From: Nannochloropsis salina CCMP1776
Taxonomy: Eukaryota; Sar; Eustigmatophyceae; Eustigmatales; Monodopsidaceae
NCBI GenBank assembly: GCA_004565275.1
Contig: SDOX01000145.1
Location: 441,071-505,070, forward strand
Direction: 5' to 3'
Length of the DNA stretch: 64,000 nt
Shown here: in pieces, positions 1 through 62,029 of the stretch
How positions within the stretch are numbered: the first letter of the stretch is position 1
Layout: each line of letters starts with the position of its first letter
Position numbers and translations under genes: made by a program
Notes under the pieces: generated by a model
What the model was told of the DNA's origin: nothing
Seen by the model: the letters and a program-made list of their open reading frames with translations, nothing else
Databases searched by the model: none

Positions 1-3000
1 CAGGCTCCGCAGAGGATGACATCAACACGTGAAGGTTGGAGGTGTGAGGTTGACCACTGCCGGCGAGGACCGACGCGCTCTCCAGATCCTCATGCGGGTC
101 CACAGGATTGGCCTGTATGTGCCGCTGCTCGTCAGGGTCGGGTCCGGCGCCGCGAAGGGTGGAGCGAGGCCCTGCGATGATGCTCCCGGGATGGCGCGAC
201 GGCCTTGCCGCAGCGTGCGAGCTCAGTTCGGATGCGGACGACCACCCTTCCCCTTCCCCCCGTCCCTTCCGTCCGCTCTCCTGTGCGGAGGCCCAGAACT
301 GACGTCCTCCATCCTCCCGGCCGCAGACCACGCGCACAATCTCCATGACGTCCACCAGCCCCACCACCGACCCGTCCCGGCTGTCCGTCACGGGTAGGTG
401 CAGATAATGGTTCTCGCGCATCATGTACAAGGCCTCCAAGACCGTGGCCTCTGCCTCGATCGTGTCTGGCCGGGCCGTCATAACACTCGAGACCGCCGTG
501 AAATCTGGGCTCAGTTCCTGGGACACCACCCTGCCTAGCATGTCCTTGGGGGTGAAGATCCCCACCAAGCTTTCATCCTCGTCCACCACCAACACCGCCT
601 TCCGACACTTACTCATAACTTCGGCGGCCGTGCGTACGTTCACAGTGGCCCGGACAATGTTGGTCGGTGCCCCCTGCTGCCCTAATAATGCTCGCAGAGA
701 TGGGTTACAGTCTCTACCGGGCTCTGATTGCTCCTGCAACAGCTGCATGAGGTGCATTAAAGCTCCATGCCCCCCCTGGGCGACGCCCGCCGATGCGGCT
801 GCCAGGGAGGAGGCAGTTTTCTCTTCTCTCCTCTCCAGTCGGGTGATCGCGTCGCTTAAACACTTGGCGATGTCCAACAAGCCCACTACCTGACCATGCG
901 GGCCCATCACAGGCAGGTGCCGGAAGCGGCCTTTCACCATAGTGGTCAGCGCATCGATACTGTCACTGTCTTGCGAAACCGACTTGGGGTTCTCAGTCAT
1001 GATGGTACTTATGGGGGTCTCGGCCTCCGCTCTGTATTGTGCAATCACCCGGCGCGTCACGTCATTGTCTGTTAAAATGCCCAAGACCTTTCCCGTCCGG
1101 GAAGTCACTAGGGCCGCGTCTGTACGTTTGTGGACCATCGCCTTCGCCACCTCCGCAACAGACGATGCCCCGTCGACCACCAAAGGGTTGCGGGGCCGTA
1201 ATTTGGAGACAGGCCGGAAGGACGAATCTTTCTTGCCTCGGAGCGCGATATGAGGGATGCTCCCAACCCCCGACAGCCCACTGCGCATGGAGCCAGCTTC
1301 GGACTGCGACTCCCATGCATCGTCTCCTTCCCCCATCGTCGACGCCCAGAACGACCTCCCGCCGTCGTCCTTCCCTGTCAACGAGCTCAGACTCTGCACG
1401 ATCTCCATCGCGCTCAGCAGCCCCAGAGCGCGGCCACTCTCCTCCACCACAGGCAAGTTCAAGAAGTGTCCGTCCCGCATCGTGTACAACGCATCCAACA
1501 GTGACATGTCCGGGGTCACGCTCGCAGGCTTCGGCGTCATCACCTCGCCCAGACTCGCCCCCCCCGGCGACAGCCCCTTCGCCACCACCCGCCCCAACAC
1601 GTCCTTGAAGGTGACCAAGCCGATCAGCTCACCGTTCTCACCCACCACCAGGCATGCCTTACGCGAGGCTGCCATCTCTCTCGACGCCTCAAGAACCGTG
1701 GCCTCTTTCAAGAGAAGCGCTGTAGAAGAAGCTCCGCTGAGCATACTCCCCACACTCGGCAGCTTGCTCCCACCGTCCTCTCCATTCCCGCCGCTGGAAG
1801 AAAGCAATTGCATGAGCGTCGAGACAAGCGCCGTCTGGTGCTTCCCCCCGCCCCCACGTCCTGCTAACGCCATTGCCATCGCCGCTGCCTCCAGCTGCTT
1901 GTTCGTACCGCTGCCCGACTGTTTCTCCCGATGCTCCTCCATCTTCTCCAACCGAGTGATGGCATCGTTCAAGCACTTGGCGATGTCCAGGCATCCCACC
2001 ACCGCGTCCCCAGAGTCCAGCACGGGAAGATGACGGAAGCTGCCCCGTACCATCAAGGTCAGCGCGTCCAAGCAATCATCCTCCAGCGTCACCGTCGTCG
2101 GATTCGCAGTCATCACGTCTTCCGCTGTCGTCCCTTCCACCGACAGCTCCTTCGACACCACACGTCGGGTCACGTCTGTGTCCGTCAAGATGCCGCTCAA
2201 AGTCCCGTCCTTGCCTGTCAACAACACTGCTGCGGCGCGACGCTCCACCATCACTTGTGCAAGGGCAGCCACACTGGTCGTCGCCGCCAGCACCAGCGGC
2301 TTATCCGGCCGAAGCTTCGACACGGGCCGAGAAATTGACCTGGCTTGCAATTTAGAAGCACCTTTGCGATATGATACGGCACTGCGCATGGAGCCAGCTT
2401 CGGACTGCGACTCCCATGCATCGTCTCCTTCCCCCATCGTCGACGCCCAGAACGACCTCCCGCCGTCGTCCTTCCCTGTCAACGAGCTCAGACTCTGCAC
2501 GATCTCCATCGCGCTCAGCAGCCCCAGAGCGCGGCCACTCTCCTCCACCACAGGCAAGTTCAAGAAGTGTCCGTCCCGCATCGTGTACAACGCATCCAAC
2601 AGTGACATGTCCGGGGTCACGCTCGCAGGCTTCGGCGTCATCATCTCGCCCAGACTCGCCCCCCCCGGCGACAGCCCCTTCGCCACCACCCGCCCCAACA
2701 CGTCCTTGAAGGTGACCAAGCCGATCAGCTCACCGTTCTCACCCACCACCAGGCATGCCTTACGCGAGGCTGCCATCTCTCTCGACGCCTCAAGAACCGT
2801 GGCCTCTTTCAAGAGAAGCGCTGTAGAAGAAGCTCCGCTGAGCATACTCCCCACACTCGGCAGCTTGCTCCCACCGTCCTCTCCATTCCCGCCGCTGGAA
2901 GAAAGCAATTGCATGAGCGTCGAGACAAGCGCCGTCTGGTGCTTCCCCCCGCCCCCACGTCCTGCTAACGCCATTGCCATCGCCGCTGCCTCCAGCTGCT

Positions 3001-6000
3001 TGTTCGTACCGCTGCCCGACTGTTTCTCCCGATGCTCCTCCATCTTCTCCAACCGAGTGATGGCATCGTTCAAGCACTTGGCGATGTCCAGGCATCCCAC
3101 CACCGCGTCCCCAGAGTCCAGCACGGGAAGATGACGGAAGCTGCCCCGTACCATCAAGGTCAGCGCGTCCAAGCAATCATCCTCCAGCGTCACCGTCGTC
3201 GGATTCGTAGTCATCACGTCTTCCGCTGTCGTCCCTTCCACCGACAGCTCCTTCGACACCACACGTCGGGTCACGTCTGTGTCCGTCAAGATGCCGCTCA
3301 AAGTCCCGTCCTTGCCTGTCAACAACACTGCTGCGGCGCGACGCTCCACCATCACTTGTGCAAGGGCAGCCACACTGGTCGTCGCCGCCAGCACCAGCGG
3401 CTTATCCGGCCGAAGCTTCGACACGGGGCGTATTTGCTGGGACCTCCCAGTCGACTTGGTTGGGGTCGTGAAACTCATCGCTGAAAGTTTTCGGCCAGAG
3501 ACAGACTTGCTCGGAGAGAACTTGGCAGGGGAGATAGTGCTGGCAATGGAGCGTGCGGGCGATGACACCGCTGAGGAAGGAGCAGCACGCGCGGATGATA
3601 GGACCTCAACGGCTTCCTGCGGCATGGCGGCCCGCAATTCACGAATCTCTTCCTGGATTCCATCGACTTCCGATTGTAAAGGTTCGCAAGCCACGAACTT
3701 TTTGGCAGCCAACAGCTTCTGAATTTCCATTTTTAGATCTGCCGAGCGACTCTCGAGTTGGCTCAAGGTTGGAAGAGCAGAAAGCTCGGCCTCCAATAGG
3801 TCAAGCTCTTTTTGGAGGCTTTCACACCGCGCGAACTCTTTGGCCGCCAGTTTCAAGGCCAACTCCTTCTTGAGAGTGCTGATGTCTACTTCCAGGGCCG
3901 AGCGGCTCTTTTTGCTTTTCTCTCCTTCAAGCGATTCCTGCTTGTCCACACTCAGGGAAGCCCCGGCCTCTACTGCCTCGCGCTTTTCCTGTTCTACTAT
4001 GGCTTGTAACGATTGACGAGCATCCTCCACTTGCTGCTGGAGTCGGTCACATTCTATATACTTGCGGTCCTGCGCCGCTTGTCTCACCGCCGCTTCCAGA
4101 TGCTCGATTTCGTGCTCCTTCTCAGCGGAGGTAGGAAACAATTTCCGCATGCCCGATAAACGATTCACTTCCTCTTGCGCCTTTTGACATGCTGCAAAGT
4201 TCTTTGCGGCCTCCAGATGCATCAGCTCTTCCTCCGCCGTCTTGACTGCCGCTTCGAGATCCCCACGGCCTCTGAAACCCGTGGCTTCCGCGGCGGAAGG
4301 TTCCTTCGCATTTAAAATATCGCGAAATTTGAGTTCCAGCACTTTAACCTGGAGTTGAACCTCGTCGCATGCTTTGAAATTTTTGCTTTGGAAATGCTCG
4401 TCAATAGAGGTTTGAAGTGCAGCAATGTCATTCAGTACCTCTTGTCGCGTGGGCATGAGCCTTCGTAGCTCGATAAGGCTTTGCAATTCTATTTGCAGTT
4501 TCGAGCAGGCCACAAAGTTCTTCCGCAGGGACATATCCTCGATCGCGCTCTCGACCTCGGCCACCTTTCCCTCCAGGCTCTTGCGAGTGTACGGCAAAGG
4601 CTCACGCGCCTCCCGAACAGATGTAAGCGCACATTCAACCATCTTGATCTTCTCAGCCACAGCCACACACTCGTCGAAAGCTTTACGTTCATCCGCCGTC
4701 TTCGCATCTGCCTCCAGCTCAATGATGAGGCGCAGCAGCGCATCCTCTTCGAGCTTATTGTACGGATTAGTAATGCGTCGGTATTCTTGAACGCACAAGA
4801 AGCTCCGAACATAGGCCTGCAACTGGATGACCCCGCGTCGTCCAACCAGGTAGGCTCGGCGAGCATTTCGCATGCGGCACATAGCCTGCGCGGCTGACAA
4901 TCTTCTGACAAATGCGAGAAAGCGCCGACGAGTCTGATACTTCCGGATGGTAGCCTGGAGTCTGACAGCAGCGCGGTGCCGGCGCAGTCTAGTCCACGCT
5001 CTTTGAATGGTGTGAGCGCCGAACTTGACACGCAGCTCCAGGAGGCGTGCGAGTTTTTCCGCCATGGACTTGCGCATGAAGACCTTGCTCACCCCCATCT
5101 GCCATTCCCGCGCGTCCACGTTCAGCATTCGGGAAAGCTTCTCCACCAAGTCAGGGAGACTTGCACACCCGGGAACTAGGCGAGCGAATTGTTTGTACAT
5201 GACCGAATGAGGCTCGCGCAATGCGTAGCCTTGTTGACGGATGCGAATCGCCTCCATCATCCCTGCATACCTCAGCTGCCTCAGGATTTCCTTGGAGTCA
5301 AAATGCCCCGACAGCTTCTCGTGATTGGGTTTGACGCAGCGCACGTATCGCGGGGTGGTCATGTCCAGTGTTTCTACCAAGGTCGCCAGCGAGCTTCGGA
5401 ATTGGGACGACAAAGAGGCCTCCCGCAATCGGGAACCCCCTCCTTTCCCCCCTCGTCCCGCGCTCCCCGGTCCGGCGCCAGCGCCTCCCTTTTTCCTGTG
5501 CGACCGCTCTTCAAAGAGTTTTACGTCCAACAGAATGTCGTCACGAATGAGCGGATCGGTGCTGGATAATGCCAAGGCCCGCACATTCTGGTGCAGGTTC
5601 TCCACATTCCGCTCCACAAAGCCGTCGACCTCGTACAAGACGAGGCCGGCATAGTGTTTGACCCCAAAGCACACGTCGGAGTGCAAGCGAGGCCGCACGT
5701 ACGCTTCGCTTTTTCCTGCGAACGTTGTGTGCAACGCCGATAGGAAGCGGGCGTCCGCTTTGCCTGGGCCCCCGCCCACACTCTTGACGTCGTCCAAAAT
5801 GTTGAACAAGCAGGAAGCCCCCGTCTTTCCTCCTGTGGCAGCTACGGCCCCTCCTGCAGCCTCCCCTTCCGGAGCCCCGGCTTCCCGGTAATACCGAGAG
5901 TCGAGCAGTGCCAAGCACGGTTGGTTGTCGTTGAAAGAGACGTAGCTCCAGTCGATCCCTTCCCGCTCGTAGTCCTCCTGCTCCATCTCGAAGATATGCC

Positions 6001-7922
6001 GATTGAACTGGTTTTGAAGCGTCTCGTTGGCAAAGTTGATGAGAAGCTGCTCGAACGAGTTGTGCTCGAAGGCCTCGAAGCCGTAGATATCCAGCACGCC
6101 CCTGAATATCAAATGTGGTGGCAACAAAGAACATGTTAAGAGGTGCAACACTCCTTAATATTGTACCTGTACGCACGTAAGGATCCGACCAGTACATTCA
6201 CCCGCCGGTGTGCTTTCTGTCTTCCCGAGGACCCCTTGCCTGTCTTCCTCTGCCCTCCCCTCCCCGCCGAAAATATCCTAGCCACGTACATGAACCCCCA
6301 ACATTTATCCGCCGCGATTGTCAGATTCAGGCGGCGGACTAGCCAATTGAAGACACAGGAATAGACCGTTTTTGCCAGCGTGTCGCGCTTGTCTGCGGCC
6401 TCTGCCGCGTCATTGGGTTTGACCACCGTCTCGTCTTTCCGGGTGGTGATCTGCTTCGAGCAAAAGGTTTTTTGCATCTCCCCGGCGTCCAGCTTCAAGA
6501 AGCGGGCGGCCAGCTCCAGGTGTTTCTGAGTCGACGGCTCCGGCACCGAGCCGCCCTCGCCTGCGTCCTGGAAGCTGACGTTGCCCAGATGCAAGACCGC
6601 AGCCACCAATTCCAGCATGGTTCGCTGGAGGCGAGCGTCCAATCCAATGGCGGTCATGCATTCCATCGTCACCTTGAAATCGTCCACGTCAGATTTCCCC
6701 GCAATGTCCGTGCAGTGCCCGTGCGTGAGATATCGGAAGGCTCCGGTCCCGTCCTTCTCGTCTAAGCACAAATCCGCCAAGAGGTCCTTGTCGCCCCCTC
6801 GGATAATTTGGTAGAAAATGTGGAAATTCCTCTCTCCCTCCGCCTGTCGCACGATTCGTGTTTTTTCCAACAGGTAGTTGGTGATCTCCGCCCCGACAAT
6901 CCTCCCCGTTGCACCGAACTGTATCTTGACGTATTTCCCAAAGCGGGAGGAGTTGTCGTTCATGAGGGTCTTGGCGTTGCCGAAGCTCTCCAGGAAGGGA
7001 TTGGTGGACAAGACCTTCTTCTCTAGCTCCCCAACCTCCAAATGCGGCGCGGCCGCGGTCGTGGTCCCCGAAGCTGCAGCTCCCAGGATCGCCGCACTCG
7101 CACCGGTGAGAGAATCACTCGTGGACTCCGGCGTGGCGGCGACCCGGTAATGCGTGATGCGGGCCAAGTACTGCATGATAATCTTCATCGCCTCCGTTTT
7201 CCCCGCCCCGCTCTCCCCGCTGATGATAATCGATTGATTCGCCGGCAGCTTGGATCCGTCGTTGATGAAGGCCACGTAGGAGGCGTCCGCGACCTTGAAG
7301 AGATGGGGGGCCAGGCGCTCCTTGGCTTGCGTGTGGTGGTGGATCATCGCCGATTCCGAGTAGAGAGCATGATTCCACTTGTAGGGGTTGATGGAGATGA
7401 GGATGGGCCCCACGAAAGTGTACACTTCGTCGCGCGCGTACCGGGATCGGAGGCTCTCGAGGAGGGACATCTCTGTGGGGGCAGGGGCCCAAGAAGAAGG
7501 AGGGAAAAGCGGGATTAATGAGAAAGGAGCTAATCTCTGACAGACCTTTATGAAAATACAAGAAGGTGTGCTCTAGGACTCTTGTGGCAGCAGCCTCCAG
7601 CCCCCGTCTGCTCACCTGAGAAATCATTCAAGTCCAGTATATCTGGCACTCCCTCCTTCGCCTCCGCCTTGACTGTCAAAAGACCCTCTGACGTGAGGCG
7701 GTGCACTTGATCAAATTCATCCCGGACAAGCACAATTTTCTCGCTGACAAGCTCTTGCACGACTTTAACCGGCTTGTAGAGCATCTCCGCCTGCTTGGTC
7801 TCGTCGACCGTGCTGGCAAGGACTTTCCCATCCTTTCCTATCAGCTTGCTGGGGTCGAAGTAGACTTCGCGGGTGATTCGCCCAGTAAGAACGTCCATAT
7901 TACCCCCATCTGGATTCACCAT
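1..7922 (-). CDS. Myosin heavy chain fused to a CBS-domain array (3' end beyond window)
   Basis: Exons: 7922-7616, 7472-6290 and 6101-1, all GT-AG and phase-consistent. The last exon stays open for 6.1 kb to the window edge, giving about 2530 residues so far. The motor shows the P-loop GESGAGKTE, switch I NDNSSRFGKY and switch II DIYGFE. About four IQ-like motifs follow (near 5.1-4.8 kb). Next comes a helical tail (4.7-3.65 kb) with about seven copies of a K-[NK]-F-x-[AE]-C-x-x-x-Q-x-[EQ] motif resembling UVR hairpins. Finally there are three modules of four CBS domains (3.43-2.4, 2.33-1.3 and 1.22-0.35 kb), each starting RPVSKLRP and containing FRHLPV. Module order matches plant/fungal CBSCBSPB1 proteins, so a PB1 domain may lie outside. 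I checked the coil-to-CBS junction (3422-3700) codon by codon: no stop. Expected role: actin motor with a nucleotide-sensing tail (inference). The N-terminus is uncertain; a small upstream exon near 8.0 kb is possible. Confidence 0.88.
1281..2326 (-). repeat. CBS module copy A of a tandem in-frame duplication
   Basis: This 1046-bp segment recurs at an offset of exactly 1101 bp (367 codons) as 2382-3427. By eye only two substitutions separate the copies, near 1542 and 2105. It encodes four CBS domains and their linkers inside the myosin reading frame. Such near-identity implies a very recent duplication, gene conversion, or an assembly artefact. Confidence 0.93.
2382..3427 (-). repeat. CBS module copy B of a tandem in-frame duplication
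   Basis: Partner of 1281-2326 and, on the coding strand, the module nearer the motor. A unique 55-bp spacer (2327-2381), coding for a short basic Ser/Lys/Arg linker, separates the copies. A third module (about 350-1220) has the same architecture but is clearly diverged, so the array grew in at least two steps. Confidence 0.93.
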
Positions 7923-9145
7923 GCCCGACTGTGACGCGATTGGAGAAGCAGGAAGGAGAGGAGGAGAGTGAATACTACCGCTTTGCGTCACTTAGATATT
8001 AAAGCGCCCACTCATGGCAAGGTCTGACAACGACTTCGCCTGCTTGCCGCCAAAAAGATTCACTGAACAACAGTATCATGTGATTTTATCTTAGTTATAG
8101 TCCTAAAAATGCGAGGACGGTTTTGGTGGCATCAGAAGCTCCCTTTGCTGGTTGCTGCTCGATGGACACGCCATCCCAGCTCATTACCACGCCACATCGC
8201 ACGAGATTTGACCTATAAATGGACCTACCTCGCGTGTGCCTTGGTCTGAATGACCAATTCAAGCAGTGAGCTGCTGCCAATATCTGGCACGCAGGATTTT
8301 TTATCCTCGCCCGCGTGCTGCGCGCTACAATCGCTTGGATCAATTCGCTCTCCTGTATGACGTAAAATGGACGAGTTCCAATATTCTGAGTTTAAAGGAA
8401 CTTGCATGAGCCCGACACCGACTCGATAAGGTTACGTCATGTCTTCCATATGGACGTAGTTGGAACCCCGTGGCAGTGGGAAAGTGGTTGTTGAGAGTGC
8501 AAGCCTGACACCAATGTGGAAATTTCAAGTGACCCTCTTGGAAACCGAGACTGCTTGGCGCGTAGAAAAAGAGGTACATTGCAGCCGTACATGTCTACCA
8601 CCACATCCTCAATCGCCATGATTGTCAATCTTATAATGAAAGATCGTATACGATGAGCTCATTCGTGGTACCCATGTTCCTGTTCAGGACAAGATAGGCT
8701 TGAAGGCACCTCAAGCAAGCACCCCTAGGCCGTGCGCCTTGTAAGCTTCGTGTCTTCCTATTAATCAATCTTTCTTGACAGAATCGGCGCCCGCTCCAGA
8801 ATATTGCTATCATTGCGTGCAAAACACCTTATTTGTTGAATTATCTACATCCTAAATTGTGAAGCGGTTGCTGCTTTGCGTGTATTCGCAGTAGAAAGAC
8901 TTCTATCATCATCTTGTACACGTCCCCTTTCTTACGCTCCGCTCGCCTCTTCGAAGGCAACGCACTTTTGACGACAAAACCACCCTTCTCTTGTCCAGCC
9001 CTATCAGAAACATTTGTAGGAGGCGACCCTCTCCGCATCCGGAGCCTAGGGTGACCAAGCGTCGCGAGTGCAAGTTGGCACTTGTATATGACTGATTGTC
9101 GCACGTCCACCTCGAACCGGTTACCCTGTGAAGCTTTTTTAGACC
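7923..9145. other. Intergenic region between divergent myosin and ELMO genes
   Basis: No convincing gene is visible. It probably carries both upstream regions. On the minus strand an ATG near 8025 opens a six-codon frame that stops just before a possible donor near 7992, and a pyrimidine-rich CAG near 7929 could be the matching acceptor; a short first myosin exon here is therefore possible. Confidence 0.5.
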
Positions 9146-10486
9146 ATGGTGGCCCCTGTCCTTGTCGCCTACGAATTTATCGGGCCCGCGGATGCACCTG
9201 AGACGGGCTTCTCGTCCTCGTTCGAGCTCTTTGCTTCCGATTCCCCAACTGACGTGCTTACAGTGCTCGCCCTGCGCGAGGCCTTCCCCTACGTGGGTAA
9301 CTTCCATTTTCGAGCAAAGATTCCTTTCCAAGAGACGCAGTACGCCTGGCTGGATCTGACGGAGGAGGACACACCCTTGCCTCTCTCGACTGAAGAGAGC
9401 GATCAGCCACTCGTGGCGATCCGGGTCCTTCCCATGTCCTTCGAGGACGAGAACGTGGACCGGCAGGGGAAGAATGGAGAAGAGCTGGATTTCAGTGGGC
9501 CAGATTTGGATCAAGATATTGTGGAAAGTTGTATCGTCGGGGAAGGTGGCGGCAGCCGTGTAGGGGGCGGAGACGCTCTGGGAGTGGGAGGGGGGTGCGA
9601 CGCCTCGTTCTCCTCGCCAGGGGGGAGTTATGGCAACTGGGCCCATCAGCTGAAGGGCGTAGGCGAGTCGGTGATAACCTCGGACGTGGCACGAGACCTG
9701 ACCAAGAAGGGGCTGAAGGTGGGAAAGCAGGTGGGAAAGCAGGTGAACAAGCTCTGGCGACTGGTGGGCGAGGGCCTGGGGGGTGGTGAGAGGGGGGAAG
9801 GAGGGGCGGGGGACAGAAGGGAGGGGGACTCGTCGGTGCCTGAAGGCCCGAGCCCGTCGAGCGTCCGCTATTTGCGCAGGTGGGAAGATGCGTTGGTCAC
9901 GCCCCCCGACGCAGAGACCCTGCTCGCACTCTGGAAGGCGCTTTTCCCAGGGGCGGCCTCGCGAGAGGAGGGGGCCCAAGCACGGTCCCGGCAGTGGCGG
10001 AGAGCGGGATGCGAGGAAGAGGACCCCTTGCGAGAGTTCAGAGGGACGGGAAGTATGTGTGTACGGTGCTTAACATATTTCGCGCGGACGTATTCGGAGA
10101 AGACGCAGGACATCCTAGAACGGTACGAGGCTGGAAAAAAGGAGGGGTGTGGAAATCAGGAGATGTATCCATTAATTGGCGTCTCGAACAGCCTAATTTT
10201 GATTATGGTAGACATCTTCAAGCTGCGGGACGCTCGTTACGTACACGTGCAGTCGACGATGTGGAACCTTTTCGAAGGGGGGGGGTATGGCACCATGGAG
10301 GAGGTCTTTTCTGCGGCCCTGGCATACCTGGATCGCAGGTGGATGGAAACGGAGGCGTCTATCGAAGGTTTCTCGACTTTAGCCCGTGAAACAAGGCGGG
10401 CGCTGGAGGGGGTTTTGGGGCAGGGACCGTTGAATCTGCCGCATTTCCAGGCACTGGCGCAGGACGCGGGGTTGGGGTGGGCGTGA
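9146..10486 (+). CDS. ELMO-domain protein with DIX-like N-terminus
   Basis: Single-exon gene of 446 residues starting in a good ACCATGG context. The C-terminal half (about 240-430) fits the ELMO/CED-12 family: an LW-x-x-LFPG segment, the block DPLREFRGTGSMCVRCL, then YFARTY and YPLIGVSNSLI. ELMO proteins act with Rac/Arf-type GTPases, either as exchange-factor partners or as Arf GAPs; which applies here cannot be read. Residues 1-98 (AYEFIG, then FPYVGNFHFRAK, YAWLDL, and IRVLPM) resemble the DIX/DIX-like beta-grasp polymerisation domain. The middle is low-complexity Gly/Ser/Glu with a short amphipathic Lys/Val segment (about 175-210). The ELMO call is fairly secure; the DIX call is motif-level only. 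Confidence 0.75.
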   Translation: MVAPVLVAYEFIGPADAPETGFSSSFELFASDSPTDVLTVLALREAFPYVGNFHFRAKIPFQETQYAWLDLTEEDTPLPLSTEESDQPLVAIRVLPMSFEDENVDRQGKNGEELDFSGPDLDQDIVESCIVGEGGGSRVGGGDALGVGGGCDASFSSPGGSYGNWAHQLKGVGESVITSDVARDLTKKGLKVGKQVGKQVNKLWRLVGEGLGGGERGEGGAGDRREGDSSVPEGPSPSSVRYLRRWEDALVTPPDAETLLALWKALFPGAASREEGAQARSRQWRRAGCEEEDPLREFRGTGSMCVRCLTYFARTYSEKTQDILERYEAGKKEGCGNQEMYPLIGVSNSLILIMVDIFKLRDARYVHVQSTMWNLFEGGGYGTMEEVFSAALAYLDRRWMETEASIEGFSTLARETRRALEGVLGQGPLNLPHFQALAQDAGLGWA

Positions 10487-26191: not shown

Positions 26192-29100
26192 ATGGGGGAC
26201 CGGCGGGCTAGCACATCAAGTGACCTGGGTGAAGGCGCAGAGGAGGAAGACCACATCCGTGTCATCTGCAGGTACTCTTCCATTTTAAGACTTTTCACGA
26301 AATTTCTCGACATTCTGACTTGATCGATCAACCTTTTGTTCCCTAGCAAATTTGATGAATGTAAATAAAATAAAATTCTTCTGCAATTTGGCACTAATGC
26401 GTTTATATTGCCTCTTACATCCCTGCTACAGGGTGCGCCCCCCACAAATCCGTGAGGGACGGAGCAGTGCCCTTGGTCTCCGCACATGCGTCACAGTAGG
26501 TGAAACGAGGAAGACCGTCACACTTAAGCAAGCTTCGGGGCCAAAAGTTTTCACTTTTGATCATGCTGTGGGTGACGACGCTTCGCAGGAGTCGGTCTTT
26601 CAGCTTGCAGGAAAACCAGCCACCAAAGCTTGCATTTTGGGCTACAATGGCACAGTGTTCTGCTACGGACAGACAGGATCGGGGAAGACCTATACCATGT
26701 TTGGTCCCAATGTGGACGCCTGTGGAAGCGACGACGAGCATCGTGGTCTGGTTCCTCGTGTACTTGAGTATCTCTTCGCCCATGTGGCGCGAGAGGAGAG
26801 GCGGAACGGGGGCGCCATCACTTACCTGTGCCGGTGCTCTTTCTACGAGATTTTTAATGAAAGGGTTTTCGATCTGCTAGATTCGGACTCTGGATGTTCC
26901 GTTGGAGGGCTGCAGACCCGGGAGGATATGAAGAAGGGCGTGTATGTGGAGGGGCTGACGGAGGAGGCAGTGGACTCGCCCTACCAGGCTTACCAAGTCT
27001 TGACTCGCGGATATCGCAACCGACACGTGGGCGAGACTGCCATGAATCGGTAGGAGGGGGCGGGGCCCGGGAATCTGGGGGATGTGGGCCCTTGCAGGGG
27101 GTGCGGAGGGAGCATCCTGACTGCTTCGACTCCGGCACCCATGCACGCGCCTGTCCTGTCACCCTCCTTCATGAATGCCGCCCTCCCACCCCTGTCTCCA
27201 CTCTTCCACTTCCACAACACAGAGAGAGCTCCCGGTCCCACGCCGTCTTCACGGTCGTGTTGGAGTCCCGGGAGGTGGACACCGTGGACGGGATTACCCG
27301 CGCTCGATGCGCGTCCTTCAACTTGGTGGATCTGGCAGGCTCGGAGCGGCAAGGACAGACGGGTGCGTGTCGATCCGGACGTCCAGTGGCCATAGACTGG
27401 ACCGTGAAAGTGGCAGGAGATAGAGGCCAGCGTCTCTTGCCCTAACGCTCGCCAACCCCCTGAACATACTAGGTGCCACGGGCGAGCGGCTGAAGGAAGC
27501 AAGCAGCATAAACAAGTCCCTCTCGGCGCTTGGCAACGTGATCAACGCGCTTGTCTCGGGCCGCACCCGTTATGTTCCCTACAGAGACTCGCGCTTGACG
27601 TTCCTCCTCCGGTGAGTTGAGATCATGGCGAGCATCTTCATGTTTCGGGTCACGCAATCTCACCCTTTCTGCTGTCCTCCCCCTGCCCGTCCAGGGACTC
27701 CCTCGGCGGGAACGCGAAGACCTTCTTGGTCGCCTGCACCTCTCCCAACGATGAAAACTTTGCCGAGACGCTCTCCACGCTCAAGTTTGCCCAACGGGCA
27801 AAGATGGTGGGTATACGAATCCTGCGTGGGGAAGAGGGATCTTTACGGTAGCACACCGCAAAAGAGTCCCGAGACTCACCCCGCGTACGATCCTTCCTTC
27901 CCTTTCCTCTCTTTGGCAGATCAAAAACAAGGCGGTCGTGAACGAGAACACGAGTGGAACCGTCGAGGCCTTGCAGAAGCAGCTCCGCACCCTGCGACAA
28001 GAGCTTCTGGCAGCACGCGCTGTTGTGCAGGCTTCGGGGGTAGCGGTTCCTCCTTCCTCCAACGATGAGTTATCGGGGGCACCCACAACGCTCGCGGCCT
28101 TGCGCCGGACGGAGGAACTCTTGCGGGAAGCCTTGGAGCGTAATTTACACATGGAACAGGCGCGCGATTTGGCCGAGAAAATGGCAGGAAATGTGCAAGC
28201 TACTGTCGATCGTCTGGAACAGAGCCTGCTGCACGAGCGGATGGTCCGCAAGATGAAGGAATCGCACATCAGTCGCCACTTGAAGAAGAAGGCTGACAAG
28301 GGCGGGGCGGAGAGTAAGACAATTGAAGAGGACCTCCGCCTGGAGATAGAAACCTTGCGGAAGGAAATGAGCCAGGTGCCTGTGGAGGCGATCAAATGGA
28401 GGGCTGCCGCCGAAAATGCGCAGGCCCAGTTGGACGCCTTGCTGGACGAGAAAGAGGGATTGGGCATGTGGGTCGATGACAGGGAGAAGACCTTCGCGAC
28501 AGCGTTGGAGGAGCGACTGAGAGCGACCTTGGTGGAAAAAGCGGAGTTGGAAGCTCGTGTCTTTGGCGGGACGGCAGGCGGGGATGGAGAGGCAGGGAAA
28601 GGGCAGAAGAGGTTAAGCAACGGTGGGATGAACCGGCTGAGGGAGGCGGAGATGAGCACAGTGCGGTTGGAGGAGGAGTTGACCGCGGCGACACGACAGG
28701 CGGAGGACTGCGAGGCAGAGTTGGCGGAGGTCCGAGCCCGGGCCGCGCAGGCAGTGAGCGCACAGTCCCAGATCCAAGTGCAACTCACCCACGCAGAGCG
28801 ACGGTTGGAGGCCTTGGAGGGCGAGAATAAAGTCTTGAAGGCGGATAGGGACTTCAACATGGCCCTGCTCCAGGAGCGCATCGAGGACACGCAGAGCCAG
28901 GCCCAGGCGGCCAAGCAGGACGTGGAAGCTCAGCTGGCTGCGGCCTGCAAGGACAACGCCATCCTCTTGCAGCGCTTGAAGAAGACGGCAGAGGAGGCCG
29001 AGAACCTGGGCGCCCTGCAGGAAGCGGCAGAGAAGCAAGTCCAGACTCTCCGGGATGAGATCGAAGGGGACCTGAGACCGCGCCTGGTAAGGCTGGAGGC

Positions 29101-30895
29101 CGAGCTCGAGGAGCGGGAGAAAGACCTCGCGGACTCCCAGGAAAGTGTGGCGCTCAAAACAGCGGAAATGGAGGCGGCCGCCACCCAGGCCCAAGAGGCA
29201 GCAACCGCCGCCGCTGCCACGCATGGAGAGGAGCTGCAGGGACTTCGCGTCGCATTGGACGAGGAGATCGGACGGGCGCAAGCCTTGCGAGCGGAGAAGG
29301 ACGAAGGGGCCTTGCAGTTGGCGAACCTGCAGGAGGAGCACGACACCTTGACCCAGCTCCTGGAATTCACGCGGGGCCAGAATGCCGAGATGGAGCAAGG
29401 AATGGGGACCCTCCAGGCCCGGTTGGAAGCCTTGGAAAAGGAGAAAGCACGGACAGAGGGCGACTTGGAGGACGCGCGGGCGCAGGTGCTCGAACTGGAA
29501 TGCCGGCTGGACAAGGCGGGGGGCGACGCAGCGGAAGAGAGACGGGCCCTGCGTGCCTTGGAAGGGGTGCACCATGCGCTCGCCCAGGAGCGCGACCAAT
29601 TGGCGGAGGTCGCGGAATCTCTGCGGGAGGAAGTTAAGGGTGCTAAAGCCGCCCATGAACAGGCAAAAAAAGAAGCGACGCGCACGGCTCAGGTCTTGAC
29701 GGATTTGGGAGAGCAAGTCGGGCGTTTGCGGGCAGACTTGGCGGAGGCACAGGCGAAGGAGCAAGCTGCGAGATCAGAAGCGGAAGGGCTGGGTCAAGAG
29801 AGGGAGGACTTGTTACAGAGGGCCCACGAGGCTGAGGATTCTCAGGCCGAGATGGGGGAGGAGATGATGGCGTATCTGGACGAGATCACCATGCTCAAGA
29901 CCCGACTCCAGGAGGGAGAGCGGGTTCACGCGGACCGGACGCGGGAGCTGGAGGCAGTATGGAAAGCCGCCGAGAAGGAGTCGGGGGCACGGGCCGCGCG
30001 TGTGGCGGTCCTCGCGAATGAGGTGAAAGGGATGCAGGAGCGGCTTGACCAGCAGCAGGCGGCGGACTACGACGCCAAAGCCATGATGCAAGCCGAGCTG
30101 ACCCGTCAACAGCAGGAGGCAGAGTGGAAGCACACCAAGGCGATGGCAGACCTCCAGCAGGAGCTGGCCGAAGCAACTGCGCGTGGGGCAGAAGCTGCTC
30201 GTTTCAAGGCCGCGTTAGGCAGCAGTCAGTCCCAAGTGGAGGCTTTGCGGGAGTCGCTGGTCGAGTCGAAAGCGGCGTTGGAGGCCGCAAGCGTCAAGGG
30301 AAATGCGGCGGAAGAGAGGTCTCGGTCACTGGCCCACCAATTGGGCGAGGCCCTGGCGCGGGAGAGAGACGCGGGGAAATGGCGCGAGGAGAAGGCCCGG
30401 TGGGAGTTGGAAATGGCGCGTGCCAGAGAGATGGAGAAGGAGGCTTACGAGCGGTGCGAGACGGCGGAGCAGGAGAAGGCTAGCTTGGGCAAAAGCGTGG
30501 AGGCGTTGGAAGCAGAGGTGGAGGAACTAAAGTCGGTGAACGTCCGATTGGTGGGCCATGCCAACAGCCGGCAGAAGATTCAACTGCACAGCAAGCTGAA
30601 AGAGGAGATCACGGAGTTGAGTCGTAAATATAAGATGCTCGAGGAGGAGAATTATTCTTTGAAGGTGATGATGGGCCCAACGGAAGGGGGGAAAGGAGAT
30701 ACGAAGGGCGGCAGCCTAAGCCTACGGAGTAAAGGAAAGTCGACGCCGGCTGCTCCAGTGGACGCCGCGGAGCCAGCCGCCCTGAGCAACGTGACGAATA
30801 CGAGCGGTAGGCGCCCGACCCGGCGGACGGTAACGAAGAAGGGCGTGGGCCTGGAGGCCTTGGCGGCGGAGGGACCTGAGGCGACGGAGACGTGA
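26192..30895 (+). CDS. Kinesin-12 family motor (KIF15/POK-like)
   Basis: Six exons: 26192-26271, 26432-27049, 27223-27362, 27473-27611, 27695-27806 and 27920-30895. All join in phase and give 1354 residues. The N-terminal motor shows IRVICRVRPP (across intron 1), the P-loop [22 protein letters not shown] (across intron 2), DLAGSERQ and [10 protein letters not shown]. The neck [13 protein letters not shown] matches kinesin-12. The remaining ~1000 residues are nearly continuous coiled coil, Glu/Ala-rich, ending in a basic [12 protein letters not shown] tail that could bind microtubules. Kinesin-12 proteins work in spindle bipolarity or, in plants, division-plane placement. All introns fall in the motor; the coil is one 3-kb exon. 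Divergent from NDC80. Confidence 0.96.
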
Positions 30896-45468: not shown

Positions 45469-47364
45469 ATGCCCGTGCACAGGATGTTCGTCCTCACGCT
45501 TTCCTCTTTATGCCTATGGCGTGGTCTACCCTCGGCTTCTGCTTTCTTGGCCGCACGCTTCCCTTCCTTTGCCCCACTCAGTGCCGTGTCCGCCCCTTCG
45601 ATTGCCCGTCATATTTCTGTCTTCCTTCCACCAACCCGCGCCAGCATTCGCATGCTCTCATCGTCGTCCGAGTATTTTGCGGTCATTGACGAGATGAAAG
45701 TGACGGAATTGAAGGAGCATCTCCGGCGCCTGAAGAAACCCGTCTCGGGCACTAAGGGGGTGCTGCAAGAGCGCTTGAAGGAGGCTCTGACGGACACCCC
45801 CGTGCAGCTCAGCAGCATCACAGCCCCCACGTCACCAGAAGCGTTAGTGACGTCCGAAGGGAGTGACCAGGGCATGGACGTGGAGGAGGAAGAGCAACTT
45901 CTGCCCCCAGCCGACCTAGGAGATATTGAGGACGGGCCCCTCGGCAATGGCGGCGGGACAAGGGCGAGTCCCCGGGGCCGCGCCGCCCAGACTTCACGTG
46001 CGTACACCGAGCATGAAGACGCGTACGACCAGACTGGTCGAGGCGAGGGCTCCAGAAGGGGGCCAGGCGGGAGAGCCCCATGGAGGGCGGACGAGGAGGC
46101 GTGGGCGCATGCCTCGGAGGAGGTGGTGGAGATCGGGCAAGAGATGGAGGCAGAAGTGATGAGTTTCTCGGATCTGGGCATCACGGTGCGGTTGGACGGG
46201 CGCTACCGGGGCTTGATCTACGAGGACGAGCTCGACTACCAGCGGGACCGGCAAGGACTGCGGGTAGGGGACCGGTGCGTCGTGTACGTGCAAAAAGTCC
46301 GGCGGGACGGAAAAGTGGACGCGTCGTTTCGGAAGTTCGGAACTTTCCCCAAGCTGCAGGACGGTCGGCAGGTGGTGTGGGACGCGCTTCTGGCCTCTGC
46401 GGACGGGTCGTTGCCTCTTGGGGACCGGAGCGACAGCGAGGAGGTGGTGGCGGCCCTTGGGATCAGCAAGAGCCAGTTCAAAGCCGCGGTGGGCATGCTC
46501 TACAAGGCGCGGCAGGTGCAAGCCCCCGAGCCCTATCGGATAACCCTGGTGCCGGAAGAAGAGAGGGGTGGGGAGGGAGAAGAAGGAGGAGAGGAGGGCG
46601 GGCGGGTGGGGGAGAGAGCGGCCTCGATGCCCGCGTTTCAGGTGCGGCCTGACGGGGAGGAGGGGGGCTGGGGCACCCGCACGGAAGGAAACTGGGACCA
46701 GAAGCGGGAGGAGGCGAAGTGGGCGCCGACCAAGGTCTTCATCCGGGGCCTGCCGTTCTCTCTGACGGAGGAGGACGTGCACAAGATGATGAGCAAGATC
46801 GGCGCGGTGGTGGGGATCCGAGGGATGACCCGGAGGGACGACGGTCGGCCGAGCGGCGTGGCGTGGGTGGAGTACGAGGAGGAGGCGGACGCGGTCACCG
46901 CCAAGGGCGTCTTCAATGGGAAGACCTTCCGGGGGCGGTACCTGGAGGTCTTCAGCATGGAGGAGATGCGGAGCGATCAGCACAGAAGAGGCGGTGGCGG
47001 CGGGTACGAGAAGAAAGGGAGTGGGGGTGGGTACGATCAGAGAGGGGGAGGCGGCCGGCCAGGGGGGTACGACAGGCGCGGGGCGAGTCTTGGAGGAGGG
47101 GATTGGAAGGTAGGAGGTGGGCAACGTCGAGAATTTTCTCCTCGGGGGGGTATGGGCGGCAGTCGAAGCTACGACGCGGATGGCGAAGGGGAGGATAGCT
47201 GGGGGGACGTGGGGATGGCTTGGAAGAACCAGGGGGGGGGGAGCGAGGGGAGGAGGACGGGAGGAGACCGAGGGGGGTATTTCACACCGCGAAAGGGTGC
47301 GGGAGGTATGGAGGATGGATTAAATTTCGATGCGGACTTAGATTTTGGAGAGGACGACGAGTAG
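45469..47364 (+). CDS. Plastid-targeted SAP / S1 / winged-helix / RRM / RGG protein
   Basis: Single exon, 631 residues from the ATG at 45469. Residues 1-26 are a signal peptide ending PSASAFLAARF, a textbook ASAF plastid motif. Then: SAP-like helices (about 70-106, KVTELKEHLRRLKKPVSGTK); an S1-type domain (about 220-287, LGITVRLDGRYRGLIYEDEL); a winged-helix segment (about 290-364, LPLGDRSDSEEVVAALGISK then SQFKAAVGMLYKARQV) like the C-terminus of bacterial CvfB/YitL; an RRM (about 419-499) with VFIRGLPFSL and GVAWVEY; and a Gly/Arg-rich tail. It likely binds nucleic acid in the plastid stroma, perhaps RNA processing or translation (inference). SAP could instead contact DNA. I know no named protein with this domain order. 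Confidence 0.88.
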   Translation: MPVHRMFVLTLSSLCLWRGLPSASAFLAARFPSFAPLSAVSAPSIARHISVFLPPTRASIRMLSSSSEYFAVIDEMKVTELKEHLRRLKKPVSGTKGVLQERLKEALTDTPVQLSSITAPTSPEALVTSEGSDQGMDVEEEEQLLPPADLGDIEDGPLGNGGGTRASPRGRAAQTSRAYTEHEDAYDQTGRGEGSRRGPGGRAPWRADEEAWAHASEEVVEIGQEMEAEVMSFSDLGITVRLDGRYRGLIYEDELDYQRDRQGLRVGDRCVVYVQKVRRDGKVDASFRKFGTFPKLQDGRQVVWDALLASADGSLPLGDRSDSEEVVAALGISKSQFKAAVGMLYKARQVQAPEPYRITLVPEEERGGEGEEGGEEGGRVGERAASMPAFQVRPDGEEGGWGTRTEGNWDQKREEAKWAPTKVFIRGLPFSLTEEDVHKMMSKIGAVVGIRGMTRRDDGRPSGVAWVEYEEEADAVTAKGVFNGKTFRGRYLEVFSMEEMRSDQHRRGGGGGYEKKGSGGGYDQRGGGGRPGGYDRRGASLGGGDWKVGGGQRREFSPRGGMGGSRSYDADGEGEDSWGDVGMAWKNQGGGSEGRRTGGDRGGYFTPRKGAGGMEDGLNFDADLDFGEDDE

Positions 47365-47999
47365 GATGATGGAGTGTGAAAGTTGAATAAGGAAGTAGAG
47401 GGTAAGCTGTGCGGCCCTCTGCTGAAAGGACTGCACTTAAACGTGTCGAATCACGACACAAATCACAACCAAATGAAGCGCAAAGCACGGGGTAAATGTC
47501 ATGGTCTTGAATTTCGGACCGACATTTTCATTACTGTTGTTGAGAGTGATCCTTATTGCGCGAAATTTACTTTTCGAAGTGAGAGCAACGTGCAAGGCAA
47601 GGGAAGAGGCTGACAAGAAAGCTCTCCATCTCGATTGCACCATGACCAGCAAAGCCTCTCCATACATGATAGCCAGTGGCATGTGCTCACACACTCGTAC
47701 AATCGACACTAGCAATTCTTTGCAATTCATTTTTCCGGGCAGACGGGCCAGCTAGCAGCAGAGAGGGAGGAGGTTGGCAGTGCGTCCTTCAAGTATATAG
47801 TCTGAGCTTGAAGTGGGCAATTGTTCCATCCAAGACTAGAGATGGTGACTTTCGATGCGGTGCGATAACATACACACATTACCACGGCTTCGACAGGAAC
47901 AAGTACATACCTCCGCTGCTTGTTTGGATCCCCTTGCGAGTACAAATCTGTCAGTGAGTTATTCGCACGCATCCTAAGTGGCCCCGCCCGGATTACCAG
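47365..47999. other. Intergenic region, no gene seen
   Basis: Between two plus-strand plastid-protein genes. Only short frames; likely 3' UTR plus the promoter of the PDZ-ferredoxin gene. Confidence 0.5.
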
Positions 48000-49161
48000 A
48001 TGGCACCCTGTCGGAATGCCCTCACCGTAGCCCTGCTCACGAGCGGCGCATTTACACAAGCTTTTTGGGTCGCGCCTGCCACACCATGGCTCCATGGCTC
48101 CCGTCACTTCTCAAAAGTCGTAACCGCGCCGCTGATGGCAACATCGGAGACTACCAACTCAAACGTCCCCCCTCCCTTGACACTAGAAGAAATATCGAAC
48201 AAAATAAAATTTGAAATCACCGATCTGGATGCAGGCGCCTACGGCTTAGAGAGCAAGGATGTAGCATATGCAGGTGAGCTACAACCATTGAACTTATAAG
48301 TGTAGACCTGACGGGATGAGCATTTTCTAGCTGCCCCTAGTCGCCTTCCCCCTGTAAGGCCGTCCTACGTCCTTCTGGCCGCATCTTTCCCCCTCTCCCC
48401 CCTTATTCTCTCACGCGACGCACATGCTTCCCCAAAAAACAGTGGAAATTGCAAAGGTTGACATTCCCCTGGGAGAGGGCGGCATTGGGCTGGGGCTGGA
48501 GGAATTACGACGGGGGCAGGACGGGCGCGGGTGCGTGCTCGTCTCCTCCCTACCCCCGGAAGGAAACGCCGCCCAAGCGGCCGGAGACGACGGGAAGATC
48601 CGAGTGGGGGACATGATTTGCTACCTGGGCCAAGAGCCTCGGGGCATGGTGCGGACGGAGGGGTTGGACTTCGAGCAAACCATGGGGGCGCTCCGCCGCT
48701 TCCTGGAGACGGGCGCCCCCGCCATCACCCTGGTGCTGAAACGCCTGGTCTTTCGCGCCTCCTTGGACGTTTCGCTCTCCTACACACCCGGCCCCGACGA
48801 GGAGAGCCAGGGCCGCAAGGCTTGGACCCAAACGCTGCCCATGTTGGCAGGCTCCCAGCTTCGGAAAGAGCTCCTTCGCGCGGGTTTGCCCGTGTACAGC
48901 CAGGACACGCTCCGGTTCGACCAGCCTTACGTGACAGGAAACTGCGGGGGGGAAGGGATCTGTGGGACCTGCCTGGTCCAGGTCTTGGAGGGAAAGGAGC
49001 TCTTGAACGAGAAGGACGAGGTGGAGGCGATGGTGACCCGGAAATGGGGAGCAGCCAACTGGCGCTTGTCCTGCCGAGTCATCGTGGGCGCCACCAACAC
49101 GCCGGGTACCGTCCGTTTTAAATTGATGCCCCAGGCGCCCTTCACCAAGAAGAAGCCGTGA
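48000..49161 (+). CDS. Plastid PDZ-domain [2Fe-2S] ferredoxin-like protein
   Basis: Exons 48000-48273 and 48443-49161 (phase-1 join), 330 residues. The signal peptide ends in TQAFWVAP, an ASAF-like plastid signal. Residues ~92-190 form a PDZ-like domain (GGIGLGLEEL, VRVGD-type strand IRVGDMICYLG, TLVLKRL). The C-terminus is a ferredoxin fold: NCGGEGICGTC gives Cys-x5-Cys-x2-Cys and WRLSCRVIVG the fourth Cys. This spacing and CGTCLVQVLEGKELL resemble plant PnsB3/NDF4, a subunit of the photosynthetic NDH complex, rather than soluble photosynthetic ferredoxin. Role as an electron carrier or assembly factor is inferred. Confidence 0.87.
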
Positions 49162-49560: not shown

Positions 49561-52500
49561 CTACCTCTCCATCTCCTCCCTCCGGGCGTTCCGAGGACAC
49601 CGTGTGATGTAATGCGCCCGCACCCCCTCCTCTGATGCCGGCTCGATCGCATAAAAACATAAAGGGCATACCACCTTTGTCCCCGCTCCCTTTCCCCCCT
49701 CCTCCGCAAAGTAGGCCCCCGGTCCCGTCCTCCAGGCTTCCCACTGGTCCCTCCGGACCGCCAGTCCACTCGCTCGGCAGGCCTCGTACTCCCCTCGCGC
49801 CTCCTCACACTCCTCCAACAGGTGCTCCGGCAGCCCGAAAATCTCGATCACCTGCCCGCACTCCCGACACCGCATCAACAAAGGGCAGCTCGTGAAGTAG
49901 TGGCGGTCCAGCGCCTCCTCTGTGAAGCCGGGGTCGTGCAATCCGCAAAATTGACAGGTTTTCTCCTCCTCTTCCCCCTCCTCCTCCTCCTCTTCTCCCT
50001 CCTCCCCTACCTCCTCCTCGCCTTTGTCTCCCTCGCCGAAAAATGGACCCTCCTTCTCGCTTCTTACGCCCACCTCCCCTCCTTCATTTTCCCCAAAACG
50101 CTGTACGTGATGATGAGGAGGGAAGGGGCCTGCCAGCTGTCCACTCCCCTCTGAGGTGGCACCCGCCCCCGCCTCTCCTTCCCCTTCCACCGATACATGC
50201 GGCGAACGCTGGCGTTGCAGCTGTCGTCCCTGCGGACGGATGGCCTCCTCCTCCTCCTCCTCCTCCTCCTCCTCCTCCTCCTCCTCCTCCTCCTCCTCCT
50301 CCCCCTCCCCCTCCCCCTCCCCCTTCTCCGCATGATGAGCAGATGGGCCGGGAGGACTCCTGGCCACTGGCGGGGACAAACGACTCGCCACCCCATTCTT
50401 TCTACCTCCCCCTCCTTCCCCCCGCCCTTCCCCCGCCCTCCGTAGAGCCGCCCCCCCCTGCTGCTCCCGCTCACTGCCTGGCCCTCCTCCACCTCCCTCC
50501 CCCCCTCCCTCCCTCCCTCCCTCCCGCCCCACCGGTAGCACCCCTTCCGCCAGCACTTGGCGAAAGGCCTCCTCGTACTCGTCCCGCTGCTTCCGCCGCA
50601 GCAAGGGCTCGACGAGGGCGTAGACGCTCCCTCCCACCTGCCTGTACAAGGCCACCGTCACCTCCCTCGCCGCGTCCCGAACCTCCCCCGAAGAATGGGA
50701 GAAGGCCCTCGCCGCTCGCATGAACCCCACCGCCTCCTCCACGGGCATCCCAGCCCCCCCGCCCCCCCTCCCTCCCTTCTTCGCCCCTTCCACCACCAAT
50801 TTCTTCAAGAGCAGCAACCGGCAGAGCACCGTCTTTCCCGCCGAGGCTTGCTTGGGTTGAAGCTTCCTTAACGCGTAGGGCCCCACCCCGCCCACCCCGA
50901 CACAGGCGCTCCCGGCCATGTCAGAGAGGCCCGCCAAGGCCGCGTCCCGGATCCGCTGCTGCCCGTCCCCGAGCTTGAGAACCAGGCTGGCGATCACCGG
51001 TTCGACCAGCGGCCCCACCAGGGAGCGTTTGAAACGGCGGGTTTGAACGGCGGTTAAGAGCGAGTGGAGGAGGAGGAGGGAGGACATGAAGACCTGCACG
51101 ATCTTGTCCTCCACCGCCACGGCCAGCACGTCCGCCACGGCTGGCAGCGCCTCCGCCAAGTCCAGCCCTCCCTCCCCCCCTCCCTCCCCCCCTCCCTCCA
51201 CCAACACCTTAACCTTCAGCACTGCGGCGTCTCGCAGCACCCAGAGCTTGGAGAGAAAGCAGCGTGTCCAGTACTCGCCGAAAACGCAGACCAGGGTCGG
51301 TACCTCCCCCGCCCCCGCGTCCTGCCCCCCCAACACTTCCGGGTATGGTAAATCGTGCACGTCGTAGGTTGGGATCCCCGCCAACGGGTGTGGTCCCGGG
51401 CCTGGCCACGCCCCCTCCCTCTCTCCCCCCTCTCCGTCCCCCTTCCCTTCCCTCGCGCCCGAGCCCGCGGCCCCCGCCCCTCCCTCCCGCCCTCCCTCCC
51501 GCCCTCCCTCCCTCCTCGCCCCGCGCCCACTCAAGGGTCGGTCATCGTCGAAGACGGGGGGCACGCGGGAGGAGCGGGGAGGCGAGGGAGGGAACGCCGG
51601 CGGCAGCGAGCTGGAAGCCGCCTTTTCCTCCCCCTTCAACGGCGCGATCGGATCCGAGTCCTGGTGCAAAGGGTGTGGGAAGCCATTGGCCTCCTCCCCC
51701 GCCCCCGCACTCCCTCCGCCCCCGCCCTGCCCCTCCGCCCATCCCCCCGCCTCCAAAGCCTCCCCTCCCCGCGCCCCGCTCCCGACCGGCATCTCGTCGT
51801 ACTCCCGCATCGTCAAGACCGCTCCCTCCCTTGCACCTGCCGAAGCCCGGGGGGGGCTGACCTGCCCACGGCCACCCTCGCCTACCGCACGCACCGGCTC
51901 TAAAGGCGGGTGATGGACATGCTGGGGCTGGAAAAGCGACCCGGAGGTAGAGACGCCCGCCCCGCCGAACGTGCCTTCCGCCCACAGGGGGCCGATCCGG
52001 CCTTCGACCTCGGCGCGGACCCCCTCGATCTCCTCCTTCAAGGCCTTGGCGCGGTCGTACTCCTCCTCCCGCACCGCCTGCCGCTTCTCTTCCTCCAGGG
52101 TACTGATGCGTTGTCCTCCTTCACGCAAGGCCGCCTCGGCCGCCTTGAGTCGCTTGGCTTCGTCGTAGTTTTCCGCCCGCACCGCCCCCTCCTTGGCCGC
52201 TAGCAAGGCACGGAGCCGCCGCGTCGTGTCCGGGTCGAAGGGGGAGAGCTCGTATGCCAAGTCGTGCACCCCTTCCTCGTCCGCTCCCCCCGCGTGGTGA
52301 GGCGGGAGGGAAGGCTGCGGGCTGGGGTCTGGCCCCCCTTCCCCGAGGAGGTTGATGGCGACGAAGCCCACCTGATTGAAGAGGTTGAATTTGTTGACGT
52401 GGCATCGGTGGATGACCAGCTTCAAAAACCTGCCCGAGCAGGACACGAACACGCTCTTAAGCTCGCGGGCTCGAAAGTTGGACCGTTGGTTGCTGTTCAG

Positions 52501-61478: not shown

Positions 61479-61784
61479 GCAGTTTGAGGAGGTGCGAAAG
61501 GGCGAGGGGGGCACGCTCAGGACTTGTAGGTGCGCGGCCCGGGCCTGAGGGTGGGCGAGGCGCCTTAAGGGAAAGCGATGGATGCGCAGGACAATTTTGA
61601 TTGCAAACGAACGCAAAAAAGACACGAGCCTCTCCTTCTTTTCGGGGAAGAAATCATTCCTTCGAGAGACGACGCAACGAGTGCTGTTGTTTACTTTTCT
61701 CACCCGCAGGGTCCCCCCATGCTCTCTTTCTCTTCCTTTCCCTCGCCTCAGGCCTTGGGCACGCCCGCGCCCCTCCTTCCCGCC

Positions 61785-61929
61785 ATGGAAGACCGCCCGC
61801 CTCCGGGTCGCTTTTTCCACAAATCCACACCCATCAAGGACCTCAAGCTGTTCCAAACCCCATTTTCACCTCCTGTGAGGCTCCCTAGCACTGACGGGAA
61901 ATCAGGAACCCCCTGCCTCCCTCCCTCCC
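61785..61929 (+). CDS. Possible 5' end of an unidentified gene, cut by the gap
   Basis: An ATG in a strong GCCATGG context opens a frame that runs into the N gap (48 codons; MEDRPPPGRFFHKSTPIKDL start). Composition is Pro/Ser/Lys-rich with no recognised family. Its gene, if real, lies in or beyond missing sequence, yet MinC occupies the far side on the other strand. Confidence 0.25.
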
Positions 61930-62029
61930 NNNNNNNNNNNNNNNNNNNNNNNNNNNNNNNNNNNNNNNNNNNNNNNNNNNNNNNNNNNNNNNNNNNNNNN
62001 NNNNNNNNNNNNNNNNNNNNNNNNNNNNN
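61930..62029. other. Assembly gap (100 N)
   Basis: Exactly 100 Ns, the usual placeholder for a gap of unknown size. The flank before it is CTCCCTCCC low-complexity sequence. Confidence 0.99.

Follow-up and report, generated by a model that had tools for sequence, protein, structure and literature searches.

The locus considered here raises the question of whether a single gene joins a myosin motor to a long array of CBS domains and, if it does, what kind of myosin this is and what such a tail may do for the motor. It lies at one end of the window, by which we mean the whole stretch of 64,000 nucleotides of Nannochloropsis salina CCMP1776 that was analysed (contig SDOX01000145.1, positions 441,071 to 505,070). 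An earlier note on this DNA had described a myosin motor joined to at least twelve CBS domains. The parts of the gene, in the order of the protein, are as follows, with the exons taken from the gene model.

Positions 7616 to 7922, minus strand: exon 1, with the start codon at 7922 and the N-terminal region ahead of the motor core (aa 1-102).
Positions 6290 to 7472, minus strand: exon 2, the motor domain with the P-loop (aa 188) and switch I (aa 274).
Positions 1 to 6101, open at the window edge, minus strand: exon 3, the remaining motor, the neck, the helical tail and twelve CBS domains.
Positions 5042 to 6100, minus strand: second half of the motor, with switch II (DIYGFE, aa 501) and a Gly/Lys-rich stretch which we take to be loop 2.
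Positions 4772 to 5017, minus strand: neck, with IQ motifs by Pfam, by strict pattern and by eye.
Positions 3626 to 4744, minus strand: helical tail, with seven 46-residue repeats around K-x-F-x-A-C-x-x-L-Q-x-E-V.
Positions 2378 to 3430, minus strand: module 1, CBS 1-4 (aa 1388-1738).
Positions 1277 to 2329, minus strand: module 2, CBS 5-8 (aa 1755-2105), near-identical to module 1.
Positions 272 to 1222, minus strand: module 3, CBS 9-12 (aa 2124-2440), which shares 45-46% identity with modules 1 and 2.

In the gene model, the three exons are separated by two introns, 143 and 188 nt long and both with GT-AG borders, and the joined product is at least 2,530 residues long, contains no stop and runs past the window edge. 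The frame of exon 3 measures 2,051 codons from stop to stop, and a stop-free run of 2,033 codons would be expected with a log10 P of -33.5 from base composition alone. The minus-strand locus is a genuine single gene that encodes a myosin motor with a twelve-CBS tail. The claim of the earlier note was borne out in its main points: the joined frame has no stop, Pfam finds both Myosin_head and twelve CBS stretches in it, and switch II lies within exon 3, as had been stated. The description of a single unbroken exon from 6101 to 1 stands as far as the open frame goes, which continues throughout; position 1, however, is the edge of the sequence and not the end of the exon, and the stop codon and the C-terminus of the myosin lie beyond the window.

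The motor itself is well defined. Pfam matches Myosin_head with an E value of 2.4e-195 in the joined 950-residue head and neck, and of 1.1e-72 in the stop-to-stop frame of exon 3. The nucleotide-binding motifs are intact (GESGAGKT at aa 188, NDNSSRFGK at aa 274 and DIYGFE, the switch II motif, at aa 501), and the nearest solved motors by sequence, among the best 60 of 150 matches, are myosins Va, X, IE and II. Residue E450 aligns with a glutamate of myosin Va, and we take it to be the acidic residue at the TEDS position; this residue suggests that the head may not need phosphorylation of the heavy chain. The neck that follows is short. Two IQ motifs are found by a strict pattern, at aa 878 and 901, and further IQ-like stretches can be seen by eye near aa 859 and 921, for a total of up to four, while the single IQ stretch that Pfam reports falls short of the curated threshold (bit scores of 18.7 and 17.3, with the cut-off at 20.3). 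A search of viral contigs for relatives of aa 498-860 of the motor gave 28 pattern matches, none of which was confirmed.

Between the neck and the CBS array lies a helical tail whose seven repeats of 46 residues span residues 950-1322. The pattern by which the repeats were selected demanded the cysteine, so that its invariance among them comes by selection; independent of this pattern, seven of the eight cysteines of aa 940-1330 occupy the cysteine position of the repeat. Outside the ten columns of the pattern, the mean pairwise identity of the repeats is 0.164, compared with 0.083 (s.d. 0.012, maximum 0.134) in 5,000 random-phase sets from the same region; a control based on the whole segment is partly circular. 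The single-sequence model of the tail consists mostly of successive helices, at low confidence (mean pLDDT 61.0, pTM 0.23). Pfam gave no significant family match in the helical tail region, and the single repeats had weak matches to other families only, with ABC_tran_CTD in three of the seven (best E 0.011). The F-x-x-A-C-x-x-L-Q core resembles what we take to be the UVR motif, yet UVR-type hairpins were rejected, with no Pfam UVR match in the region or in any of the seven repeats. A search of the PDB sequences with the repeat profile, at an E limit of 10, gave 19 hits, of which the best had an E value of 0.2 and most were coiled-coil constructs of the GCN4 type. When the model of the helical tail was used for a fold search with the same limit, there were 43 matches, none of them at E up to 0.001.

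The rest of the tail in the window is taken up by CBS domains. Pfam finds twelve CBS stretches in the exon-3 frame (E 1.9e-95), and these stretches together with a reading of the domains agree with the earlier description of three four-CBS modules; every module ends in F-W-A-S. By the T-x-x-D rule for CBS domains, the two members of each pair differ: a count made by reading the domains places T-x-x-D in the first CBS of every pair, or six of the twelve domains (as TDTD, TDND, TFKD or TPKD), and leaves the second CBS of each pair, the other six, without it. The model of module 3, built from an alignment of the three modules in which two of the three sequences are nearly identical, has a mean pLDDT of 67.7 and a pTM of 0.65. 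With this model, Foldseek returned 622 PDB matches at E up to 10; among the best 50 of them, the top five are AMPK entries, presumably chains of the gamma subunit, and archaeal CBS proteins such as MJ1225 come after them. The top AMPK match has an E value of 3.1e-18, TM scores of 0.66/0.70, an rmsd of 6.1 and 17% identity. The predicted model of module 3 thus has the four-CBS fold that an AMPK-gamma-like sensor would have. Searches for the CBS modules gave 132 pattern matches in viral contigs and 13 in contigs of prokaryote genomes, with none confirmed in either set. A tblastn search of plasmids with module 3 found 65 records (five of them listed), all below 60% identity and none covering 80% of the query, and we read these as generic CBS hits.

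What kind of myosin, then, has such a tail? One such class, the class-XXIX myosins, was reported from diatoms, oomycetes and other stramenopiles by Odronitz and Kollmar (2007, PMC2375034). In the passages of that paper devoted to the class, these myosins are described as having three IQ motifs, short coiled-coil regions, as many as 18 CBS domains, a PB1 domain and a transmembrane domain at the C-terminus, and the class is said to have members "from all Stramenopiles species". Like them, the protein described here has a very long tail with many CBS domains, along with a motor, a short IQ neck and a helical, perhaps coiled, region; the motor with intact nucleotide motifs, by Pfam and by the motifs at aa 188, 274 and 501, and the multiple CBS domains, in twelve stretches, are both present. 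The twelve CBS domains seen here compare with up to 18 reported in the class, whose PB1 and C-terminal transmembrane domains would lie beyond the window edge; the roughly 90 residues between module 3 and that edge have no Pfam match to PB1. The passages of PMC2375034 on class XXIX mention neither cysteine repeats nor nearly identical modules. By comparison of its architecture with this published description, we are highly confident that the product of this gene is an unconventional myosin with a long tail, of class-XXIX type, a confidence that concerns its identity alone and not any regulatory mechanism. The architecture is thus not new: this is one more member of a myosin kind known since 2007, and the surmise in the earlier note that such a tail "may already be catalogued" agrees with what the class-XXIX passages of PMC2375034 describe.

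The class number itself may have been revised. The main text of the 2017 reclassification gave no hit for CBS, PB1 or class-29 (PMC5583752), and the classes it gives as common to most stramenopiles are 1, 4, 30, 31, 75 and 81, with 29 not among them. In the open-licence literature, the name "class-XXIX" was found only in PMC2375034. A text search of PMC3942036 found neither CBS nor PB1, and the relevant parts of PMC1592074 cover both myosin and CBS, but as separate matters. Among the matches listed from the open-licence literature, a search with most subscription journals outside its reach, there was no functional study of a CBS-tailed myosin. There is, on the other hand, a related group of proteins. 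As presented in the relevant passages, proteins with CBS domains and a C-terminal PB1 form a family in Chromista, fungi (Mug70) and plants (PMC7051960; for plants also PMC2694836), and the plant CBSCBSPB proteins have two CBS domains and one PB1 each by the count published in 2009 (PMC2694836). They resemble the class-XXIX tail in having CBS domains followed by a C-terminal PB1; compared by their descriptions, they differ from the present protein in having no motor, and in having two CBS domains (in plants) rather than twelve. This family is a likely source of the class-XXIX tail.

Two readings would take this gene apart or change its count. In one of them, there are two genes, with the myosin terminating at about 3.5 kb and a CBS gene starting from an internal ATG, merged only by the open frame. 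The linker between coil and CBS, at aa 1321-1380 (about 3.63-3.45 kb), is the spot where a split gene would need cutting; it is rich in Ser, Ala and Pro, and it holds an in-frame Met. Frames were compared by codon score in 27 windows from aa 901 onward, the codon weights having been trained on aa 103-940 of this gene; its own frame came out ahead in 26 of them, and the sole exception is this very linker, where frame 2 has a narrow lead (-0.07, with -0.17 for the gene frame). The score there carries little weight because of the Ser/Ala/Pro-rich composition, and the fusion at this junction is therefore supported by frame continuity and by published precedent. The gene frame is stop-free in all 27 windows, in keeping with the earlier claim that the junctions are free of stops, and no in-frame stop occurs over 6.1 kb. 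Moreover, the class-XXIX passages of PMC2375034 report the same fusion for an entire myosin class, and this class architecture favours a true fusion; we consider two separate genes highly improbable. The other reading concerns modules 1 and 2, which could be one module doubled by an assembly error, making the true count eight or some other number. The two modules (2380-3430 and 1279-2329) have only three differences in 1,051 nt, a silent one located at the border and two that change amino acids. The copies nevertheless do differ, and by eye no relation is apparent among the linkers that flank and separate them, which would not be expected from a simple duplication in the assembly, so that we regard such an error as improbable. 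From their sequences, modules 1 and 2 look like the product of a recent duplication or gene conversion that was confined to the modules.

The window is part of a gene-dense eukaryotic genome, and the neighbors of the gene point only to a eukaryote. Ten neighboring ORFs, chosen from 34, were scanned, and eight of them matched a Pfam family at E up to 0.001; the matches include ELMO, Ndc80, a mitochondrial carrier, homoserine dehydrogenase, a WD40 protein and a protein kinase. Nothing in the window passed the gathering threshold of Rfam. The ELMO/CED-12-domain neighbor, at 9143-10483 on the opposite strand, lies upstream of the start of the myosin gene, some 1.2 kb away. ELMO/CED-12 is a domain of the actin-regulator type, and its position next to the myosin gene may be a coincidence. 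Elsewhere in the window, the blocks 28001-30000, 46001-48000 and 60001-62000 are strongly strand-skewed, with GC skews of 0.23, 0.29 and 0.33, and the block 50001-52000 has a GC skew of -0.31 and 69.5% GC; all of these overlap long open frames.

As for what the tail may do, the closest structural comparison is with AMPK: among the best 50 of the 622 PDB matches to the four-CBS fold predicted for module 3, AMPK entries rank first. The modules differ from AMPK gamma in their low identity (17% for the top match), in being part of another host protein, and in having T-x-x-D in only two of the four CBS domains per module. Gating of the motor by AMP/ATP or SAM, as proposed in the earlier note, would be plausible, being compatible with the predicted AMPK-like fold and with the T-x-x-D in half of the domains. 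There is also another reading, in which the CBS tail is a ligand-free spacer or a self-association scaffold, and oligomerisation or cargo binding is constitutive. CBS domains can act as dimerisation platforms, and the second CBS of each pair lacks T-x-x-D, both of which would suit a scaffold; against it, T-x-x-D is kept in all six first-of-pair domains, those of the diverged module 3 included, a retention which suggests that the site may be under selection. We give the scaffold a substantial chance, well below even.

A mechanism in which the modules do sense a ligand could run as follows. Each four-CBS module would form a disc like that of AMPK gamma, in which every CBS pair could provide one ligand site, giving at most two per module. 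With an adenine nucleotide or another adenosine ligand bound, the tail modules would pack or self-associate differently, and the changed packing would in turn change the oligomeric state of the motor or its engagement with cargo. We put this mechanism forward tentatively, as a possibility not far short of even. A more elaborate version, in which the adenylate response would be set by the number of near-identical modules, recently added or homogenised by duplication or gene conversion, with the cysteine-repeat stalk between motor and sensors responsive to redox state or metals, appears improbable to us. At the far end, judging from the published class description, a PB1 domain and an anchor in the membrane would complete the protein beyond the window edge; with these at its C-terminus, the motor would move a membrane along actin or tether it there.

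Membrane anchoring, ligand binding and regulation of the motor are thus features that we infer, and the best reading of the gene is that it probably encodes a membrane-associated actin motor whose tail bears a row of AMPK-gamma-like modules, possible sensors of an adenosine ligand. If the CBS array does gate the motor, the energy state of the cell would be tied directly to actin-based transport within one polypeptide.
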